Below, one piece after another: positions 13,243 through 64,000 of a stretch of DNA of 64,000 nucleotides. The notes under the pieces are model-generated. The model searched no databases. It worked only from the letters and a program-made list of their open reading frames with translations, and had not been told where the DNA came from. Position 1 is the stretch's first letter. Each line of letters opens with the position of its first letter. The DNA is from Siphonodentalium dalli (Eukaryota > Mollusca > Scaphopoda > Gadilida > Siphonodentaliidae): NCBI GenBank assembly GCA_032622095.1, contig CP136064.1:218688205-218752204 (forward strand), given 5' to 3'. Made by a program: the position numbers and the translations under genes.

Positions 13243-13318
13243 GTCCTAAACGAGTTAAGTGAGACACGGGAGATTTGTCGCCCGCTCGAGACCGGTCCTA
13301 CTAACATCCGACCGTACC

Positions 13319-13335
13319 GCCCCCCCCCCCCCCCA
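13319..13335. repeat. Poly-C tract
   Basis: An uninterrupted run of about 16 cytosines. It is prone to length error in sequencing, so frames crossing it are unreliable. Confidence 0.8.
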
Positions 13336-13463
13336 GGGGTTCGAGCGAGATGGGGCATGCACTTTTGTACAAAATAGACCTGAATGTACCAAATTTCCAA
13401 CCCCAAGTCCATAGCACGAGCGGAAACGCCACTATTAACCCCTAAATTGCGGCCGTTTTCGCA

Positions 13464-13877
13464 GTTACACTGGTGTAAATAGGGTTCGGAGTGACATCTA
13501 GCGGATGCGGGAGGATTATATAGGAGAGAATAAAATAGACACTGGGCCCTGATCATCACACCTCTTCCCTATGATTTCCCATAGGTAAAATAACCATTGA
13601 CACAGGAATTAACCCTTTGTAGTGAAGTTTGAATTTTTTGGTGTGGTATAAAATATGACAGTATTTTTTTATGCGATTCTGACACAAGTTACGAAAACAC
13701 AAGATTTAAAGGCAAATTCCCTGCTAGACAGACATGATTTTTTTGTGTAAAAAGTTTCCCAATATGTCAATTTTTCAGATTTAAAGAAAATTTTGGACCC
13801 AACATTTATATTGCCAACAGTATACGCTAAAACGTTAGCACTGAGGCCTATGGAAAACATTTACACCAGTGTAACCT
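13464..13877. mobile_element. TTACACTGGTGTAA-ended repeat, copy 1
   Basis: Begins with GTTACACTGGTGTAAAT and ends with its reverse complement. The 14-bp core is itself a palindrome. Copy 2 at 14782-15183 shares the inside in the same order (GGAGTGACATCTAGCGGATG, AGACACTGGGCCCTGAT, TTTCCCATAGGTAAAATAACC, AACATTTATATTG). Its size and the terminal inverted repeats make it a MITE. No open frame is conserved. Confidence 0.6.
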
Positions 13878-14781
13878 AAAGGGAAAAAAATGCTTTTTGG
13901 CATTTTTGATTCCTGGGAGTCACTTTAAAGCATTTTAATGCATTTTTCAGAGCCTGGTCTTTCAGTCCAATGAATATATCATGTATGGTGTGGCTATTCT
14001 TGCTGCTGATGTCTTCTTTCACTTACATCAGGCAAAAAATAGTATGATTTTTCATAAAAAATGCCAATTTTTCAAGGTATTTTCAAATATTTTCAATGTG
14101 GTAATAGTCACATGATAATGAAAATGACCCATAACATGAGCATGGCAATGACACACATATCAATTGTTATAAGAAGCTAATCTAACAAGTATTTTGGATT
14201 TTATAGTCAGTGATATACAGATATATATCATAAAAGTGTGTCATTTGCACTGGTGGGTATGGCCATTTGAAGGTTGATAGCACTATAACTTGGACACATT
14301 TAAGAAAATGCTTCAGCAATTCAAAGAGAGCATATCTTTATTCAACTAATTCAATATACACCCACATCCAGTTATCTTGGATCACCCTTGCAGACCTGAA
14401 AATGTCATATTTTAGTCTTCCATGCGCTGACAAAGTCATGCGTTTCATGCTCAGCTGATCAGATCTGGATTCAATGACCTCACATCACCAGAAGTTCTTT
14501 CATGGAATGAATCTTGTACAATCTTCCAAAGCTGATCCAAGTTTGCAACACCAGACCCCAAAAACTGAGTGAAAATGGGGCCTGAACATGAACTGGTGGT
14601 GGAAAATTGTGCTTTTTTTATGAATAATGTGTTAAAGGGGGTGGGGTTAAATTGTGTATGATAAATAAAGAACCACAGAAAAGATATTGTTTTTGAATAC
14701 ATTTTTTTCATTGATGGGTAATTCTGAAGGAATGTAGGGAGTTACAATTATTCCGTGAAAAAGCGGGCTATCGCTTTTGGC
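13878..14781. other. No recognised feature
   Basis: Moderately AT-rich stretch between the two MITE copies. Short open frames at 14267-14458 and 14451-14898 lack recognisable motifs or convincing splice borders. Confidence 0.45.
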
Positions 14782-15183
14782 TACACTGGTGTAAATAGAA
14801 TTCGGAGTGACATCTAGCGGATGCGGGAGGAATATATAAGAGACAATAAAATAGACACTGGGCCCTGATTGGTCATTAGCCTTTTTTGCTTTTCGCATAA
14901 AAAAATCATCTCACCTCTTCCCTATGATTTCCCATAGGTAAAATAACCAGTGGCACAGGAATTAACCCTTTGTCGTGAAATTTGAAATTTTTGGTGTTGT
15001 CTAAAATATGACAGTATTTTTATGCGGTTCTGACACAAGTTACGAAAACACAAGATATAAAGGCGAATTCCCTGCTAGACAGACATGATTTAAAGAACAT
15101 TTTGGACCCAACATTTATATTGTCAACAGTATACGCTAAAATGTTAGCACTGAGGCCTATGGAAAACATTTACACCAGTGTAA
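14782..15183. mobile_element. TTACACTGGTGTAA-ended repeat, copy 2
   Basis: Same architecture and internal blocks as 13464-13877, with an insertion (GTCATTAGCC region) after the GGGCCCTGAT block and a deletion after the GACAGACATGATTT block. The left terminus has lost its first bases (CTACACTGGTG). Confidence 0.6.
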
Positions 15184-15339
15184 CCTCCTACGCCACTCCG
15201 TTCTTATTATATGTCGTTCCGTGCCACTGCACACTAATGTTCCTTGTTTTAAGATTGATTCCTGCAGTTATCCTTCCTGTATTCTTTTCACGCATTGTAT
15301 TGACATCTGCGAAATATTTGGATTAAAGTTAGTAGTTTA

Positions 15340-15590
15340 GTTCTAAGCGTGATTTATCGATGATTCTACGACTGGGGAAGTCCGATACAATAACGCTAGA
15401 TGTCTGACCGCGAATGTTATTTATTGTCTGTGCTTTACGTACATATATACATAGCGAATTCGACCGCAATGTTTGGGTTAATATATTAACTTCCGGTATA
15501 GCTAGCGACTTTACCGATTCGCTGAATGATATGTCCCTTTCCGTGGTCAGACAGCTATAAGAGAGGTTCCGTAACTGCGGAAGCGGCCGC
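15340..15590. repeat. Left flank of the 23-bp satellite: dispersed repeat
   Basis: Matches sequence before the single 23-mers at 38464 and 38791: ATAGCGAATTCG.CCGCA, GGGTTAATATATT, GGTATAGCTAGC, TCCCTTTCCGTGGTCAGACAG and CGGCCGCAAGTTAGGGG. It fixes the array as an internal expansion of this repeat. Confidence 0.7.
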
Positions 15591-17890
15591 AAGTTAGGGG
15601 TTAACAGTGCCGTTAGTTAGGGGATAACAGTGCCGTTAGTTAGGGGATAACAGTGCCGTTAGTTAGGGGATAACAGTGCCGTTAGTTAGGGGATAACAGT
15701 GCCGTTAGTTAGGGGTTAACAGTGCCGTTAGTTAGGGGATAACAGTGCCGTTAGTTAGGGGATAACAGTGCCGTTAGTTAGGGGATAACAGTGCCGTTAG
15801 TTAGGGGTTAACAGTGCCGTTAGTTAGGGGATAACAGTGCCGTTAGTTAGGGGATAACAGTGCCGTTAGTTAGGGGATAACAGTGCCGTTAGTTAGGGGA
15901 TAACAGTGCCGTTAGTTAGGGGATAACAGTGCCGTTAGTTAGGGGATAACAGTGCCGTTAGTTAGGGGTTAACAGTGCCGTTAGTTAGGGGATAACAGTG
16001 CCGTTAGTTAGGGGATAACAGTGCCGTTAGTTAGGGGATAACAGTGCCGTTAGTTAGGGGATAACAGTGCCGTTAGTTAGGGGATAACAGTGCCGTTAGT
16101 TAGGGGTTAACAGTGCCGTTAGTTAGGGGATAACAGTGCCGTTAGTTAGGGGTTAACAGTGCCGTTAGTTAGGGGATAACAGTGCCGTTAGTTAGGGGAT
16201 AACAGTGCCGTTAGTTAGGGGATAACAGTGCCGTTAGTTAGGGGATAACAGTGCCGTTAGTTAGGGGATAACAGTGCCGTTAGTTATGGGATAACAGTGC
16301 CGTTAGTTATGGGATAACAGTGCCGTTAGTTAGGGGTTAACAGTGCCGTTAGTTAGGGGATAACAGTGCCGTTAGTTAGGGGATAACAGTGCCGTTAGTT
16401 AGGGGTTAACAGTGCCGTTAGTTAGGGGATAACAGTGCCGTTAGTTAGGGGATAACAGTGCCGTTAGTTAGGGGATAACAGTGCCGTTAGTTAGGGGATA
16501 ACAGTGCCGTTAGTTAGGGGTTAACAGTGCCGTTAGTTAGGGGATAACAGTGCCGTTAGTTAGGGGATAACAGTGCCGTTAGTTAGGGGTTAACAGTGCC
16601 GTTAGTTAGGGGATAACAGTGCCGTTAGTTATGGGATAACAGTGCCGTTAGTTAGGGGATAACAGTGCCGTTAGTTAGGGGATAACAGTGCCGTTAGTTA
16701 GGGGATAACAGTGCCGTTAGTTAGGGGATAACAGTGCCGTTAGTTAGGGGATAACAGTGCCGTTAGTTAGGGGTTAACAGTGCCGTTAGTTAGGGGATAA
16801 CAGTGCCGTTAGTTAGGGGATAACAGTGCCGTTAGTTAGGGGATAACAGTGCCGTTAGTTAGGGGATAACAGTGCCGTTAGTTAGGGGATAACAGTGCCG
16901 TTAGTTAGGGGATAACAGTGCCGTTAGTTAGGGGATAACAGTGCCGTTAGTTAGGGGTTAACAGTGCCGTTAGTTAGGGGATAACAGTGCCGTTAGTTAG
17001 GGGTTAACAGTGCCGTTAGTTAGGGGATAACAGTGCCGTTAGTTAGGGGATAACAGTGCCGTTAGTTAGGGGATAACAGTGCCGTTAGTTAGGGGATAAC
17101 AGTGCCGTTAGTTATGGGATAACAGTGCCGTTAGTTATGGGATAACAGTGCCGTTAGTTAGGGGTTAACAGTGCCGTTAGTTAGGGGATAACAGTGCCGT
17201 TAGTTAGGGGATAACAGTGCCGTTAGTTAGGGGTTAACAGTGCCGTTAGTTAGGGGATAACAGTGCCGTTAGTTAGGGGATAACAGTGCCGTTAGTTAGG
17301 GGATAACAGTGCCGTTAGTTAGGGGATAACAGTGCCGTTAGTTAGGGGTTAACAGTGCCGTTAGTTAGGGGATAACAGTGCCGTTAGTTAGGGGATAACA
17401 GTGCCGTTAGTTAGGGGATAACAGTGCCGTTAGTTAGGGGTTAACAGTGCCGTTAGTTAGGGGATAACAGTGCCGTTAGTTATGGGATAACAGTGCCGTT
17501 AGTTAGGGGATAACAGTGCCGTTAGTTAGGGGATAACAGTGCCGTTAGTTAGGGGATAACAGTGCCGTTAGTTAGGGGATAACAGTGCCATTAGTTAGGG
17601 GATAACAGTGCCGTTAGTTAGGGGATAACAGTGCCGTTAGTTAGGGGTTAACAGTGCCGTTAGTTAGGGGATAACAGTGCCGTTAGTTAGGGGATAACAG
17701 TGCCGTTAGTTAGGGGATAACAGTGCCGTTAGTTAGAGGTTAACAGTGCCGTTAGTTAGGGGATAACAGTGCCGTTAGTTAGGGGATAACAGTGCCGTTA
17801 GTTAGGGGATAACAGTGCCGTTAGTTAGGGGTTAACAGTGCCGTTAGTTAGGGGATAACAGTGCCGTTAGTTAGGGGATAACAGTGCCGT
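15591..17890. repeat. Satellite/minisatellite: 100 tandem copies of a 23-bp unit
   Basis: The unit is AGTTAGGGG(A/T)TAAC followed by AGTGCCGTT. The array holds close to 100 units with almost no length variation. Three main monomer types can be read: GGGGATAAC (about 75 units), GGGGTTAAC (about 20) and TATGGGATAAC (6). One unit has GAGGTTAAC and one has GCCATT. The order of types is not random (see findings). Every unit contains TTAGGG (or TTATGGG) but not as a telomeric run. The unit length is not a multiple of three, and stop codons recur on both strands, so it is not coding. Confidence 0.97.
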
Positions 17891-18240
17891 TCCCGCTTGA
17901 TATATCGACTTGGAGACTGGAACTTTGATACATACATGTCTATTATGCACGATATTGCATGACCCATCTCCTGAGGGCACGCGGTCGGCATTTAGCAGGA
18001 CAATTTCCATACGAAATAAGCCAATATTGGCATTATTTAATCTACATATACCTTTTTCATATACGCTCTTTATAATATGTTTTCCCTGCGTCCCGCGCAA
18101 TTCAACCAACGGCATAGCGGGTATAAGCTCACTATATTGGCATATTTCAGAATAAAATCAGTGCAATATGGACATATGTGAATATTTAGGTCCAATATGA
18201 ACCCATTTGCACGATGATATGCTGCAGCTCGCACATCGTC
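17891..18240. repeat. Right flank of satellite and inverted-repeat remnant
   Basis: 17890-17960 (CCGCTTGATATATCGACTTGG onwards) matches sequence after the single 23-mers at 38.49 and 38.81 kb. From about 17998 it becomes a copy of the element at 140-960. Confidence 0.6.
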
Positions 18241-18283: not shown

Positions 18284-18496
18284 CAGTAATGCCCTAATTA
18301 ATCGACTCCATAACCACAGCAGAATTATGGGTAACTTTTCAGGATTTAGTCGGAAATATGGCTTGTTGTCATTCATCGGAAAGCTCTCCCCGAGAGCATT
18401 CCGATGAATGGCAACAAGCCATATTTCCGACTAAATCCTGAAAAGTTACCCATAATTATGCTGTGGTTATGGAGTCGATTAATTAGGGCATTACTG
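18284..18496. repeat. 213-bp near-perfect palindrome
   Basis: CAGTAATGCCCTAATTAATC at 18284 is mirrored by GATTAATTAGGGCATTACTG ending at 18496. The ~100-bp arms match at nearly every base (one visible difference is AGCAGAATT against AATTATGCT) down to a small GCTCTCCCCGAGAGC tip. No target-site duplication is apparent. Arms this similar imply a young foldback or recent arm-to-arm conversion. Confidence 0.85.
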
Positions 18497-34157: not shown

Positions 34158-34184
34158 TCCATTTTGAATGTGTGGTGTTCACCG

Positions 34185-34604
34185 TGAAGATGGATTGTGA
34201 GTGAAGATGGATTGTGAGTGAGGGTGGATTGTGAGTGAAGATGGATTGTGAGTGAAGATGGATTGTGAGTGAAGATGGATTGTGAGTGAAGATGGATTGT
34301 GAGTGAAGATGGATTGTGAGTGAAGATGGATTGTGAGTGAGGGTGGATTGTGAGTGAAGATGGATTGTGAGTGAGGGTGGATTGTGAGTGAGGGTGGATT
34401 GTGAGTGAAGATGGATTGTGAGTGAAGATGGATTGTGAGTGAGGGTGGATTGTGAGTGAAGATGGATTGTGAGTGAGGGTGGATTGTGAGTGAAGATGGA
34501 TTGTGAGTGAAGATGGATTGTGAGTGAAGATGGATTGTGAGTGAAGATGGATTGTGAGTGAAGATGGATTGTGAGTGAAGATGGATTGTGAGTGAGGGTG
34601 GATG
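34185..34604. repeat. 18-bp minisatellite, about 23 copies
   Basis: The unit is GATGGATTGTGAGTGAA with a second form GGTGGATTGTGAGTGAG. The two forms differ at two bases and are intermixed. Because 18 is a multiple of three, the minus strand stays open across the array (a repeated SLTIHLHSQS pattern within a 223-codon frame), but there is no sign that this is a protein. Confidence 0.95.
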
Positions 34605-38174: not shown

Positions 38175-38960
38175 AGAATTGCCTGGCTTATTCGCCCTAT
38201 CTCGCCCTGGAATACATACAGGTCTATTCTGCGCGATAGCACGATCTCGCTCGGTCCAATGGTCGTGTACATGAATAGCGAATTCGGCCGCAGCGTATGG
38301 GTTAATATATTCACTTCAGGTATAGCTAGCAACTTGCCAGATCGGCCATGGATGCAGTGGGGTATTCGCTGCATGATATGATGTCTCTTTCCGTAGTCAG
38401 ACAGACAGGAGAGGTGCGGTCGGTGCCTTTTTTTATTTTGCGTACCTGCCGGAATCGGCCGCAAGTTAGGGGTTAACAGTGCCGTTTCAACTTGAGATAT
38501 CGACTTGGGGACCGAAACTTTAGTACACACAGGCCTATTCTGAAATAGGACATGCTCCATCTCGCTCGGTCCCCTGGTGGCGGTATGGTCGGTGGGTGTT
38601 ATTTTCTCTGTTGAAGTCGACCGCCGCGAATGAGTTAATGTATTCACTTCCGGTATAGCTAGTAACTTGCCCGATCGCCCATGAGTGCAGAGGTGTATTC
38701 GCTGCATATGTCCCTTTCCGTGGTTAGACAGCTAGGATAGGTGCGGTCGGTGCCATTTTTGATTTTTCGTACCTGGCGGAATCGGCCGCAAGTTAGGGGT
38801 TAACAGTGCCGTTTCCGCTTGAGATATCGACTTGGTGGTTGAAACAGGTCTATTCTGCGCGATAGTACAATTTCGACCGGACCTCTCGGGACGGTGCGGT
38901 CGGGTACGGTAGGGTGCGGTGACCTGGGGTCGGGGCTTTCTAGGACCGGTTCGCCGTATT
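38175..38960. repeat. Tandem pair/triplet of the satellite-donor repeat (~325-bp period)
   Basis: Blocks GGTATAGCTAGC, GATCG.CCATG, CCTTTCCGT.GT.AGACAG, AGGTGCGGTCGGTGCC, CGGCCGCAAGTTAGGGG and GATATCGACTTGG occur at 38.33-38.51 and again at 38.65-38.83, with a partial third copy of the flank after it. Each full copy holds exactly one 23-bp satellite unit (38464-38486 and 38791-38813). The minus-strand frame at 38135-38707 only reflects the duplicated units. Confidence 0.7.
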
Positions 38961-56599: not shown

Positions 56600-57385
56600 A
56601 TCGCCTCCTTAGAATCAAAACTATAACAAAGAACATATCGCCGACTTACAACGTAACAAAAAGCATATCGTCGCCTAACAATCAAAACCACGAAACAAGG
56701 AGCATATCGTCGATTCATCGCATTACAATCAAAACCACGTAACAAAGAGCATATAACCGCCCCACAGAGAAAAACCGAGAAACAAAGAGCATATAACCGC
56801 CCCACAGAGAAAACCCGCGAAACAAAGAGCATATAATCGCCCCACAGAGAAAAACCGCGAAACAAAGAGCATATCGTCGCATTACTGTGAGAAAAAAAAA
56901 CACGAAACAAAGGGCATATCACCGCCTGACAGTGAAAACCACATAACACAGTGCATATTGTCTCCTCACAACCAAATCCACGTAACCAAGAGCATATCAC
57001 CGCCTGACAGTGGAAAAAAACACATAACAAAGAGCATATCGTCGCCTCAAAATCAAACCCACGTAACAAAGAGCCTATCGTCGCCTTACAGTGAAAACCA
57101 CGTAACAAAGAGCATTATCGTTACAATAAAAACCACGTAACAAGGAACGCGCCGTCGCCACACAGTAAAGAGCATATTACCGTCTTATAGTAAAAACTCG
57201 TAACAAGGAACTTACCGTCGCCTTACAATCAAAACTACGTAACAAAGAGCATATCGTCGCATCACAATCAAAACCACTTATAGCAAAGAGCATATCACCG
57301 CCTTACAATCAAAACCACATAACAAAGAGTATAACGCCGCCTTACAATGAAAAAACACATAGCCAAGAGCATATCGTCGCTGATG
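56600..57385 (-). repeat. ~43-bp minisatellite in the EF-hand gene intron
   Basis: About 17 degenerate units, each reading (minus strand) GGCGA(C)GATATGCTCTTTGTT, CGTGGTTTT and GATTGTAA. Periods vary between 40 and 46 bp. The last unit merges into the splice acceptor of the exon at 56583 (AGGCGATGTGCTCTTCGTTGCAG). Open frames in several phases across it (CSLLRGF-type repeats) are by-products. Confidence 0.85.
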
Positions 57386-57790: not shown

Positions 57791-59390
57791 TCGATGAATC
57801 GTCGATATTTCATGAGACGATCGCGACAATCACTGATTCAGTGACATTCGAATAATTTTGAGCCCGACAGTCCAATCTACAGGCATAACGAGCTTGTGTT
57901 ACCGGGAAATATTTGTTCCGCGAACTGGGACAAGAAATGTTACTAGTTACCGTGTTTGCCAACGATACTGGTGGGTACTATACTGGTGCAAAGGAAAATT
58001 ACCGTTAGTTTTTTTTAACGTTTTCATAGTCTCAGTCTTTGGCTAATCCGAGTAATTTGAGAGAAAGCCGGTGAAAATGTTTATTTTGAAATAGTTTAAT
58101 CAATGCCGCCCTGATGATTGAAATTTGCAAACGACAGGAATAGCTTTCTTGGTTATGGTATTTTCGCGACAACCAACAGTTCCATTATTAACGTAATTTA
58201 CAATCTATACATCCACTATTATTTTCATCCGACTATTACATTTATTTCACCTGGGTGGTAACCATGCACAGATGTACATTTCTTCTATTCCCCCAACACT
58301 TTCTGTTTTTTATCTGTTATCCAGACGCTTTAAATCAGATGGGAGGAGACGTGTAAAAGCAAGTTATGCTTGTCCGATCCCCTCTTCATGCATCCATGTT
58401 TACATGTATATGTGATGGTATTTGATGAAAATGACAATGACAACGTTAGAACAAATAACAGTATTATATATTAACTATATAATTTTTCAACAAAAGCACC
58501 ATATCAATCCAGTATGACCCACAAGCACGATAGCGAATTAGCCGGACCACTTAACCTCTCACAAAATATTTACCAAGCAAATTTGTCACAATTGTGCAAA
58601 CATACTGGGACAATTGTCTTGTGAATTATGACATTTCGCCGGAGAAGACTATGACGTACTACAACGTGTACGCTAAACTCTGTATACAATGCTGATTATC
58701 GAGCCCTAGTAAGGAATTGAAAAGCAAAGTTGCCATTATATGAACGAAGCGGCCCTTTAACTTTACTGTGAGATTAGTTGAATAGTGTAGCAGTACATGA
58801 TTTATCTGGTTGTAGGGGGTCTGAAAAATAGAAAAATAAGTATCTGGGGGCATAACAGCCAGTCTAGCATGTGTTAAATGTGTCATTTACTGGTTTGAAG
58901 GTTTAATTATTTTACAAAGGTCAACTCTGTGTTATTGGTTACAGTAAAATAGCCCGAGTTCTATCTCCTGAATTCTGTCATCTGCATTTGCAAGACATTT
59001 TTTTTCAAATTCATTTTTTTCTATTTAATTTCAAATATTTCTCAGCTCTAACATAGCTATATCAGGTGGAAGAAGCTTATTTGCCGACATTCGTTCTGTC
59101 ATGGTCTGTTTTGGGGTTGAAAATGGTCAATTTGAGTAAAATTGAGCGTTTTATGAATGCAAACTAATGGGCATAACTCATGATCAATGACAACATTTTC
59201 AAAGAAGCTAAAGTACAGACATATGATTACACCTACACTTTCTTGATGGGACCTATGCCAAAGATAATGGATTAGCATAGATTTGAAGTACAGTACCCCC
59301 TCCCAGGTTGGCCAAAATTTCTGGAAATCTTGTATTGCTACCTAGGAATGCGGACTAGTGGCGTGTTCAGGTCTAAGCTACCATACTAAC
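57791..59390 (-). other. Rest of intron between EF-hand exons
   Basis: Together with the minisatellite this forms a 2.8-kb phase-1 intron (donor ACG|GTTAGTATG at 59390). No further exon is seen. Confidence 0.55.
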
Positions 59391-60147
59391 CGTTTCCATC
59401 TACCAATGATAGACTTTGTTTCATCTCATCCTCAGTTAAATTCCCGTCTCTGTTAGTGTCCACCAAAGAAATTAAAAGATTCGTCCTTTTAGTGATTTTC
59501 ATCTCCTTCAGCTTCTGGACGTTCTGTTCGTGAGCTACTAATCCTTTTACCATGTTCATTAGTTGGTCGATGAACCCTCCGCTGTTTTCGAGGAGAGATC
59601 CCATGAATTCGCCCAGTTTGTCTTTCGCCTGATCGAGAGCCTCGTGATCAGCCCAATCTCTATGATGCAAAAGCGGGTGGTCTTCGGCGTCATGGTGCTC
59701 ATTGAATTCGGCCTTGACCTTGTCTGCGATCAGGTTCTTAACTTGTTCCATGAAAGGCCTTTCTTCTGATTTAATATGTTCCACTAAATCCCTAACGGAA
59801 TTGTGGACATCGGCGTTTCTCCAATCATGTTGTCGTCTGCTCCATGGGCGGCCATTGAACTCTTCATTGTCTTCTTCATCGTCATCATATTTTTCGCGCT
59901 TCTCCAATCGTGACTTGAAGAACTTTAGAGCTCTGTGGTGGTCGTCGTTGTATGTAGATGCGTGTGAAAATCTATGGAACCTGTCGTCGTCGTGGCGACG
60001 GCTTGAATCATGACGTCTTCTGAACATGAACTTTGCAAACTCTCTCAGTCTGTCGTGCCTATCTTCCTCCTCGTTATCGTCGTCGTCCTCGGGTGCTGGT
60101 TCTTCCGCTTCTCTCTTGTGTCTGCTGACAAACAGCTGTTTTAATGC
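59391..60147 (-). CDS. Acidic EF-hand protein gene, exon 2 in window (His/Asp-rich region, EF-hand 1 and first half of EF-hand 2)
   Basis: Acceptor ATTTCAG|GCATTAAAACAG at 60148; 252 codons plus one base; donor AAACG|GTTAGT. The N-terminal part is charged: ALKQLFVSRHKREAEEPAP contains RHKR, a possible furin-type site, then DDDDNEEED and RHDSSRRHDDDRFHRF. The middle region is more helical (NSVRDLVEHIKSEERPFMEQ, GEFMGSLLENSGGFIDQLMN). The C-terminal end holds the EF-hand loop DTNRDGNLTEDE and then SLSLVDGNG, where the intron cuts the second loop after residue 4. Family knowledge: paired EF-hands bind Ca2+ cooperatively, and the acidic/His tracts would add low-affinity, high-capacity binding. 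The likely role is calcium buffering or matrix binding in the secretory pathway; this is inference. Confidence 0.85.
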
Positions 60148-61919
60148 CTGAAATCCAGATTAGTATTGATTAATTAAAGCAACTTGATGGATTGAATGTT
60201 TAAATTATGCTTGTTATTTACATCTCGATCCGGTTCCAGGGACCAACTTATATAGGTCGATAAATATGTTAAATACTCTTGTATGGACTATGTATACCAA
60301 CAGAAAGAATAATACAAGTGATCGAATTCAGAAAGTTTGGCATGGAACAAGCCACTCTTGTTAGTCTATAACTGATATATGGTAGACATAGATAGCGTTT
60401 ATTAATTTGGTTCACGTCTGAACGAAAACAGCTGGAGCATTGGCATGTATTTTAGCACAAGAAGCCCGTATATTAATAGTTCGTGTATTTATCAGCATAT
60501 CCAAACATTTGGCAGTTGTATTGAGCCATGTCCGTTAAATATATATTGAGATATTCATGAAGTGTCAGCGGTTCAGGTGTTTGTCTCGGATATATACACA
60601 TGTCGTGTCAATGAAACATGCACGAGGCATAAAGGATTAATTCAAAATTATGCTTTAATTAAAGATATGATATTATTCGGCCAATATAGGTGGATGTTAC
60701 ATGTTTATAGTTTTTTATTTTGCGCTAAATATAGTACAATTGGATCATTTGAGTTTCTCAAAGTTCCGAAATTATCATACAGATGGCATCAAAATTGCTA
60801 AATCTAACAAACCCCATTCGCAATCCCATAACTTTTAGATATGCTACCGACTACAGTGAGACTTAAATTCCAATCAATGAAACAGGTATATTGACATGAG
60901 AAGGCAACGTTTCCGGACTTTTATATTGATAAATGTTCTAACATCGCCAGTAAATAATAACAGCCTATAATTATTATTGCCTGACGCTGGACGTATTAGG
61001 CAGAAGTCAGCCCGCTATGTTCTATTTACAAACGAAGTTCGTGCAACATATCTTAGTGATTTATTCATATCATAGTTATTGAGACGCGAAACATGTCTTG
61101 CTAACTACAATATCAACTATCGCCGCTACTGGTACGTATCATTTATATGTCAGAGGCGATCAACAAACTATATAGTCCGTGGGCCAAATTTCATGAGCGC
61201 TTCAGTTTTCAGACTCGATTTGATAGTTGTGCGGGTTAGAAAATAGCACAAAATCCTAAAACAAATCCGGATTGAGGGGATGGGTAGGGGGTTACGTTTT
61301 ATTCGAAATCTCAAACTTATCACAGCTTTAGATTCTAGACACTTATAGCGTCGTGAAGTGATGATGTTTTCAGTATAATTGTAACCTCATATAATCTGGA
61401 TAGTTTTCTTTTGGCATGGTGTCAAATTTTTAAAAAAACATTATTTTTGTGTTTTTTTGCACCAATTCTACAATTTCAATGAGATTTTTCCACAAATGTG
61501 TAACCATAAGTCAGGAAAGTATATGCTGTTTTGTAGGTGATCATATTTTTAACGATATATAACAATTTTAGATCAGTGCTCCTTCATCGACTGCCACCCA
61601 CCGGGGCGGTATATCATACTTCGGTAAGATCCTATATTTTAATAGAGGCAGGACTTATCTCCCGTAATTTTCGCCATGTCTGGACACTTTGCCAACCTGG
61701 CAACATGTATTTTCTGATGCGGGAGATAACAACCTTCAATTTGATATATAGAAACCTTTGTTCGATCAAAGTGGAGCAAATGTGTTTTTTTTTATATTTC
61801 CCGACTGGCGAAGAAGTTTTCAATCTAAACCTCCCTACTGGCAGCTGATTGGATACCTGAAGCAATTCTTGAAACCAAATTTAAGCATGAAATAAGATCG
61901 GTACATGATGGGCACGGAC
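60148..61919 (-). other. Intron between the two charged exons
   Basis: 1.77-kb phase-0 intron, donor CAG|GTCCGT (weak at +3) and acceptor ATTTCAG. No conserved feature is recognised; the frames at 60562-60801 and 61537-61865 have no support. Confidence 0.55.
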
Positions 61920-63570
61920 CTGTAGGAATGCTGCGTCGTTGTCTTCCTCTTCCTCTTCTTCTGTTTTGGGCGCCTCCATAGCCATCACTTCATCAACAAA
62001 CTCCTCCTCTGGTGCAATATCCATCTCCTCCTCGGCCTGGACAAGCTGATCCTCCACGTCGATCTCTGGTTGTTCAATCTCTTCCATATCATCGCCTTCT
62101 TGGGCGACCTCTTCGTCCTTGTCGTTTTCAGTCGGCTCTTCAATTGGTTCTTCATCTTCCTTAGAATCCTCGCCAAAGAATTTCTTGAAGTAATTCAACC
62201 CTTCGAGGTGTTGTCTTTTGTGTTCCTTTTTGTGCTGATCGTTGTAGTATTTTTTCAGAGATTCAGCAAAATTTCTGTTCTCATAGTCATCATGAGATTC
62301 ACCATGTATGCCGCGGTAGATGTTTCTTCGCCTGTCGTCTTTGTCGTCATGGCGATTTGATTTGTCTTCGTCGTGGAATTTCTTGAGGTCGTCGTCGTGT
62401 GTGGTTTTCCTCATAAAGTGTTTTCTGTTGGCGAACCTATGGCTGTCTTCTCCACTGTGTTCGTCGCGATGGCCACTTGTCCGCTCGTGATTGTCATGGT
62501 GATCCCTCTCGTCGCGGCGATCATGACGATCGCGACGACCGAAGAAACCAGGCCGGTCTTGCTCTTCAGATATGTCGTGTCTCTTATTACTGCCATGACG
62601 TCCATAGTTCTCATGTGAATCAAATCGACTATTTTCGCGTTTCTCTTTCAAGTGCTCGAAGAACTGCTTGAGTTTGTCGTGTTTATCGCCCTTCACTTTA
62701 TTGTCGTCTTTTTCATCCATATCGGCATCATCTTTCTCATTAGTGTTTTCGGACATATCACGAGGATAATGGCGGTCCGATCTGTCGAAGTGTCTTCGTT
62801 TTGCGAATCGATGACGGTCTTCTTCGCTGTTATCGTCATGGTGACCTCGTGCACGTCCGTGGCTATCACGGTGATCTCTCTCGTCACTGCCATGGCGTTC
62901 GCTATGTTTCTGTGAATCAGATCGACTGTGCTCGCGTCTCTCCTTCAGATGTTTGAAAAACTCCTTCATTTTATCGTGTTTGTCTTCATTTTTTTCCGGT
63001 TTGCTCACATCGTCATCCATTTCTTTTTCATCATCGCCATCATTTTCCTGATTGGCATCGTCTTCTCGTTCTCGCTCCGCAAAATGGCGGGACTGGCGAT
63101 GTCTGCTATCGCGATGATCGTTGTCATGTTTGTCGTCACGCTGACGTCTTGTGAACAACCCCTTCACGAAGTCTGCGAATTTCGACATTCTGTCAGCGTC
63201 GTGGTGACCGTCCTTGCGTTTCTCAGAAGAGTCGTCATGGTGATCAAACTTGCGTTCGCGAGAGTCGTCATTGTGTCGCGTCTTGGTGTCTCTAGGGTGA
63301 TCACGCCTGTCTTCGCGAGAGTCATCTCTTTGTCTCTCGGATGAATGGCGGTCGTCATGACGGTCGACCCTGTGTTCTCGTGAATCATCATGCTGTCTAA
63401 CATGGAAGCGGGATCTTGGATGACCGCGGTAGCCACGGGAACCGTCCCGTCCCCGCCATTGCTCTTTCTCTGCAATTAATTCTGGCTCTTCATTCTCTGC
63501 AAATAACAATTCTGGCTTTTCGTCACCCGGCATTAGTTCGTCGCCATGAGACTCTGACGTCACTTGGGTC
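61920..63570 (-). CDS. Acidic EF-hand protein gene, exon 1 in window (550-codon Asp/His/Arg/Glu-rich exon)
   Basis: Acceptor ATTCACAG|GACCCAAGTG at 63571; a stop in frame just upstream shows that translation must come from an earlier exon beyond the window. The only apparent start is a GTG and is not real. 550 codons, exit phase 0. Residues 1-35 are acidic (SHGDELMPGDEKPELL). About 45-125 are RHDD/SRE-type repeats. Residues near 190-260 and 290-380 form two diverged copies of one module beginning DKHDKMKEFFKHLKERRE and DKHDKLKQFFEHLKEKRE and ending in HRFAKRRHF / HRFANRKHF. The last 90 residues are strongly acidic (DVEDQLVQAEEEMDIAPEEE). It resembles in style the histidine-rich calcium-binding (HRC-type) and mollusc acidic matrix proteins; no orthologue is claimed. 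Confidence 0.85.
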
Positions 63571-64000
63571 CTGTGAATTATACGTTATTATATATAGTTC
63601 CATTTCGAATTGCTAGATAAGACAGTGTGCATATTTATCATTAATATATCAGCAGTAAGAGCTGTCACATAATATTCTGACAAACTGTATTTACACTGAG
63701 CAGTTATGTTATGACACTCTGCGTGCCATAACCGCGCGGCGAGCGACAAACTTAAATACTTATTCTTTATAACACCACATCAGCTATATGTTTGGTGTGC
63801 CGCATGAAGTGTTCCCATGATAGTCATGAACGAAAATACAAGACTGATTGACAACGTACACGTTATGATTCATGCAAAAGTACAATTGAGACATAGAATT
63901 CCAGCAACGAGAATATTGTGTCTGAGAAATAAACCATTACATATAACTGCCCAGAAACACAGTGACGTCGTATTTGGCGGCAGTTTAGCGTATAAATATA
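63571..64000. other. Upstream intron of the EF-hand gene
   Basis: The signal-peptide exon expected upstream is not recognisable here, so the 5' end lies beyond the window. A TATAAATATA string at 63991 is on the plus strand and is not taken as a promoter. Confidence 0.45.

Follow-up and report, generated by a model that had tools for sequence, protein, structure and literature searches.

A 23-bp, 100-unit minisatellite very probably born inside an inverted arm of a foldback-like DNA transposon in Siphonodentalium dalli

The window, a 64-kb stretch of the Siphonodentalium dalli genome, contains a 23-mer repeated head to tail 100 times over 2,300 bp, with 97% matches. The array sits within a plus-strand arm at 15410–18002, and the arm, its opposite number and the intervening sequence are composed as follows.

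13294–13462, minus strand: opposite (left) arm, with the terminus GGTCCTACTAACATC, which differs at 2 of 15 bases, and the end of one sub-repeat.
13425–13447, minus strand: single diverged 23-mer of the left arm, with 3 mismatches, overlooked in the earlier, sequence-only reading of this DNA.
13464–15186, unstranded: other repeat between the arms, matching sequence found next to an arm at locus L003 as well.
15190–15395, unstranded: 206-bp dispersed repeat beside the array arm and distinct from it, 84–95% identical in L012–L022.
15410–15591, plus strand: upstream part of the right-arm sub-repeat, ending in CGGCCGCA, placed by family sub-repeat alignment and by genome matches to query 232–425.
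15592–17891, plus strand: minisatellite array, 100 × 23 bp, delimited by Tandem Repeats Finder and by a direct count of its units.
17892–18002, plus strand: downstream part of the right-arm sub-repeat, then GCATTTAGCAGGACA, a decayed terminus 4 of 15 bases off that of the family.

By type, 73 of the 100 units are A-type (AGTTAGGGGATAACAGTGCCGTT), 19 are T-type, carrying T at the variable base, six combine TATGGG with A, and two are single variants. The HpaI site GTTAAC is found 20 times within the array, never in an A-type unit. A minisatellite is defined by units longer than 10 bp and shorter than 100 bp arranged head to tail (PMC3389668), which describes the present array; in addition, the unit and both flanks come from one transposable element (TE) copy and unexpanded copies lie elsewhere, as expected of a TE-derived minisatellite. 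Satellite DNA, by comparison, forms abundant long arrays, usually at many or heterochromatic loci, and the search of 2.23 Gb found a single array of 2.3 kb. The label of satellite given in the sequence-only reading is therefore replaced here by single-locus minisatellite; the span given there, 15340–17960, does hold the array but also takes in flanking sequence. Secondary structure of the unit, considered as a driver of expansion, is unsupported, because in three stretches, including one on the minus strand, four units fold on a par with shuffled sequences (z of 1.23, 0.24, and 0.93).

The units also show a higher level of order, a 36-unit block present about 2.8 times, the three blocks having like starts.

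15592–16396, plus strand: higher-order block 1, units 1–35 (35 units).
16397–17224, plus strand: higher-order block 2, units 36–71 (36 units).
17225–17891, plus strand: higher-order block 3, truncated, units 72–100 (29 units).

When units 1–61 are aligned with units 36–99, 58 of 65 columns are equal, with 2 mismatches and 5 single-unit gaps. In an information-weighted local alignment, in which rare unit types count and single-unit gaps are allowed, the self-alignment of the blocks scores 37.5, compared with maxima of 19.1 in 500 shuffles and 27.7 in 500 first-order Markov strings (0 of 500 under each null). This test was selected once a simpler one had failed: among the array units, the longest run was matched by 77 of 1,000 shuffles and the best lag by 121 of 1,000, neither of which is significant. 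The block structure itself is evident, and from it, in this one assembly, we infer that a block of ~36 units (~830 bp) would have been duplicated before single units were gained and lost, an order of events that fits unequal exchange or gene conversion.

The arms at 13294–13462 and 15410–18002 are likely the two ends of one insertion. The arm-to-arm alignment extends to 18001, and a second terminus-like match, equally distant, lies at 18342; no target duplication was seen around the element when the sequence was read by eye. Between the arms, 13464–14456 matches L003 at 90% and 14779–15186 at 84%. Pairwise divergence among the array units averages 2.1%, compared with 18.6% at the aligned bases of the two arms, and the expansion is therefore much younger than the insertion.

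Outside the array, exact AGTTAGGGG occurs on either strand of the window at two positions only, where it is single and T-type.

38464–38486, plus strand: T-type 23-mer, present once, in a paralogous arm.
38791–38813, plus strand: single-copy 23-mer, T-type, in the next sub-repeat of the same arm.

The sequence-only reading had noted that the flanks of the array recur at 38.46 and 38.79 kb around one 23-mer each, and this is confirmed: the array and both copies have in common CGGCCGCAAG before the 23-mer and TATCGACTTGG after it. The two copies, 327 bp apart, are adjacent sub-repeats of one other arm and not two independent loci. They are also paralogues, or cousins, of the array, whose source is its own locus before expansion, so that source and product do not lie side by side in the window as had been proposed.

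Three other features of the window may be mentioned. A 17-bp minisatellite at 34184–34603, taken as a yardstick, runs to about 24.7 copies, whose units are of a GTGAAG and a GTGAGG type, and all 12 exact genome matches of its 17-mer junction fall within 34184–34603, so that by this test it is also single-locus. A cluster of diverged 39–40 bp tandem repeats occupies ~0.75 kb at 56624–57380. On the minus strand, 59386–63584 holds two long reading frames with many charged residues; one of them weakly matches an EF-hand, at a level below Pfam's cutoff.

The flanks belong to a dispersed repeat of ~353 bp, the sub-repeat of which the inverted arms of a foldback-like DNA transposon are composed; in this family each arm sub-repeat carries a single 23-bp box. 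In L001–L010, a non-random set mostly picked because minus/plus 23-mer pairs had been listed, 23-mers run first on the minus strand and then on the plus strand, i.e., the arms are inverted with respect to each other and each is built of direct sub-repeats, the arrangement of foldback-like elements. The two inverted arms of L001 contain 5 and 15 23-mers and are 92% identical across 1.7 kb. The commonest spacing of the 23-mers is 353 bp (6 of the 22 spacings of 300–399 bp, in a search that lost matches), and further ~353-bp steps are abundant in L001 and L002. The family termini, GGTCCTACTAAAA...TTTTAGTAGGACC, are both present in 11 of 42 retrieved loci, and these complete copies include ones with target-site duplications, a second trait of foldback-like transposons: 8-bp duplications identical at 8 of 8 bases flank six of the 11 (L001, L002, L004, L006, L035, and L036), and weaker ones are found in L007, L024, and L033 (7 of 8 bp) and at the one place represented by L026/L029 (6 of 8). 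No transposase was recognized, as two interior reading frames (in L002 and L004) lack a Pfam match at E 0.1 and the other interiors were scanned for long frames; the family is apparently non-autonomous. At the arm ends of L001 and L002, GGTCGGGTGC-like tandem units of 10 bp adjoin TTTTAGTAGGACC, bringing to three the tandem-repeat scales in the family. In part of an arm of L025 (C9:48175–48177 kb), the sub-repeats are shortened from ~353 bp to ~282 bp and may represent a variant that was homogenised locally.

Genome-wide counts were taken from an assembly of 2,226,750,531 bases in 9 contigs, in which N stretches are invisible to the search. The exact 14-mer AGTTAGGGGTTAAC has 876 matches compared with 6 for its reversed control, and the 23-mer at up to 3 mismatches has 4,418 in 2.23 Gb, compared with none for the reversed control. 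Judging from the unit types, none of the 100 array units exceeds 3 mismatches, which leaves ~4,318 matches outside the array. The head-to-tail junction, by contrast, is confined to the array: its 91 exact matches all lie inside, as do all 99 matches of the junction 29-mer at up to 3 mismatches (reversed control, 0 in 2.23 Gb) and all 87 pairs of exact cores GTTAGGGGNTAAC separated by 0–30 bases. Given the reversed controls, the recurrence of both the 23-mer and the junction is far beyond chance. Duplications diverged beyond these mismatch limits would escape such searches.

A search by exact flanks, in which the 23-mer itself is unused, gives the same picture. CGGCCGCA and ATCGACTTGG are spaced by 20–45 bases at 868 places, the first 100 of which were listed, and by 46–76 bases at one place, C8:147309990. 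At that place, C8:147309990–147310082 is a tandem partial duplication with a period of ~40 bp and a phase unlike the array's. In the window and 32 loci, pairing of flank probes found one 23-mer in 99 of 106 pairings and none in 4, and the remaining 3 jumped whole ~282 bp sub-repeats in L025; some units are counted twice in these 106 (through the overlap of L026 with L029 and the near-copies L031 and L032), and these probes left the array itself and the 38791 copy unpaired. Two sets of the retrieved loci are best matches, from 40 of 1,076 and 37 of 1,890 candidates scored, and as such a non-random sample.

One-copy loci thus predominate as the sequence-only reading had predicted, with ~4,318 23-mer places to one array, and the outcome that it named as contrary, arrays in most copies of the flanking repeat, is not what the genome holds, since the 99 junction matches belong to this array alone. 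That interpretation is partly supported as a whole: birth of the array from a single copy within a dispersed repeat is strongly supported by the genome counts, and the satellite label and the source within the window fail.

The polarity of the variable base can be read from the same assembly. The 18-mer with T has 690 matches, 671 of them outside the array, counted irrespective of family, and the 18-mer with A has 83, of which 9 are outside. Four of these 9 are in the transposon family; the other five (one each in L038, L040, and L041, two in L042) belong to a different repeat, in which the 18-mer is also found. The ratio of T to A outside the array is thus 671:4, and T is therefore ancestral, as had been suggested before these counts were available. 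The earlier argument for this ancestry was that the first unit of the array is T-type; the observation is correct, but as an argument it is weak, because 19 of 100 units are T-type and the start recurs with each block. It is plausible that the A type arose during the expansion. We note that in L038, L040, L041, and L042 the different dispersed repeat starts at or near the 18-mer AGTTAGGGGATAACAGTG, which is identical to the A-type unit. Three upstream sequences border this AGTTAGGGGATAACAGTG repeat, one of them common to L038 and L040, and a near-palindrome of 169 columns lies just inside it in L038, L041, and L042.

Taken together, these observations make it very probable that the array is a single-locus minisatellite that was born in a non-autonomous foldback-like DNA transposon, within one of its inverted arms, and grew in situ to 100 units. 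The first step would have been a 23-bp tandem duplication in one old, decayed copy of the transposon, presumably via slippage or template switching and perhaps helped by GCCG repeats 23 bp apart. The duplicated locus would then have grown in place to its 100 units, and a T-to-A change would have spread through most of them. A biological function of the array is neither needed nor indicated. The window's single copies have one GCCG 3–6 bases ahead of the unit and another, exactly 23 bp away, at unit positions 18–21. The repeated motif is 4 bp long, and 62 of the 116 sub-repeats have GCCG-N19-GCCG, which therefore cannot alone explain a single expansion. The array junction has TT in place of CA beside the first GCCG, a mismatch of two bases, and in GCCG phase the array finishes with an incomplete unit. 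The GCCG pair is at most a help in the first duplication.

The same block structure could have another origin, as a circular intermediate of ~830 bp copied ~2.8 times would also yield it. The array would then have been imported from elsewhere, from an existing satellite or a rolling-circle extrachromosomal circle, and inserted or converted into the element. We regard such an import as improbable: no donor array of the unit was found elsewhere in the assembly, the array is in register with the single copy of the family, and both family flanks are continuous with it. In a variant of this scheme, the circle may have been excised from the array's own locus.

Few parts of the sub-repeat are as well conserved as the 23-mer, whose mean column identity is 0.931 compared with 0.812 in the upstream part outside the probes. 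This conservation, together with the internal arm repeats of Galileo that carry extra transposase-binding sites in the account of PMC4079207, would be in keeping with selection for amplification of a putative box bound by transposase or a host protein. Of the 311 windows of 23 bases, 26 reach the identity of the 23-mer, 12 being the box or overlapping it and 14 lying in the downstream probe stretch. The profile, however, is built on units chosen by flank, with probes derived from the consensus of an earlier profile chosen by the 23-mer, and the two probes by which the units were picked flank the box, so that its conservation is not fully independent of that choice. Moreover, amplification occurred at one locus out of thousands, and the host copy is decayed, has no target duplication in sight and is unlikely to be mobile. 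Selection is thus a very improbable cause.

Slightly less probable again is an artefact of assembly, by which the copy number or the array itself would be wrong. Tandem arrays are a usual place for assembly error and the array is known from the assembly alone, but ordered variants, non-identical blocks and family flanks on both sides are not expected of an invented array. Finally, although tandem arrays can collapse to one unit, the single copies can hardly be collapsed remnants of ancestral arrays that were nearly all deleted, given that no junction at up to 3 mismatches occurs outside the array among ~4,318 23-mer places, that only 1 of 869 exact-flank places (20–76 bp) exceeds one unit, with a different period, and that thousands of reductions to exactly one unit without intermediates are not credible; the junction, core-pair and flank-spacing counts rule out one-copy forms as deletions.

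Under birth and growth in situ, the seeding frequency would be ~1 in 870 flank-intact places, or 1 in 4,300 of all places. No states of 2–99 units were seen in the array phase, and a tentative reading, one that we would sooner doubt than accept, is that the copy number is bistable, the first exact 23-bp duplication being rate-limiting and all but barred, and later growth by blocks fast. If so, the family would be a natural replicate experiment on minisatellite birth. Minisatellite origins are hard to study for the reason that the starting state is rarely known; here thousands of paralogues still preserve it, including hundreds with identical exact flanks, so that a single genome shows how often a copy gives birth to an array, which way the variants changed and in what phase the first duplication fell. 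TE-born minisatellites are already well known, and this array is a clean but ordinary example that leaves the accepted picture of how such repeats arise unchanged. What makes it useful is the denominator, a single expansion set against thousands of similar copies.

Long inverted arms with internal repeats are also described for Galileo and Foldback of Drosophila (PMC3573991, PMC4168063), a likeness drawn here on arm structure; Galileo is assigned in these papers to the P superfamily by its transposase, and none was found here. In the human genome, a survey attributes 7,276 tandem repeats to TEs, which amounts to 23% of all minisatellites and satellites that it studied (PMC3389668, which cites Jurka and Gentles for Alu), and as in the examples described there, a short piece of a TE turns into a tandem array in place. 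According to the same survey, 6,817 repeats are unexplained by its two mechanisms and mostly have two units, whereas the present array has 100 units with blocks; in the survey's passages on them, those repeats are not tabulated against every unexpanded copy. In the noncontiguous-repeat slippage model presented in that work, slippage between short direct repeats makes the duplication (PMC3389668). The GCCG direct repeats that flank the single unit one period apart resemble this arrangement, but they measure 4 bp compared with 5–20 bp in the human survey, and two adjacent bases mismatch. A close likeness in arm structure is with Tetris of Drosophila virilis, in which satellite arrays are reported to arise from the foldback arm repeats TIR-220 (PMC4079207). 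To judge from that account, the two families share long inverted arms of variable sub-repeat number (sub-repeats of ~220 bp there and ~353 bp here), copies in which, as far as studied, a transposase was not found, and tandem amplification within the arm. In Tetris, as described there, the whole sub-repeat forms kb-size arrays of up to 66 copies on many contigs (PMC4079207), whereas here a 23-bp piece inside the sub-repeat has expanded at one locus.
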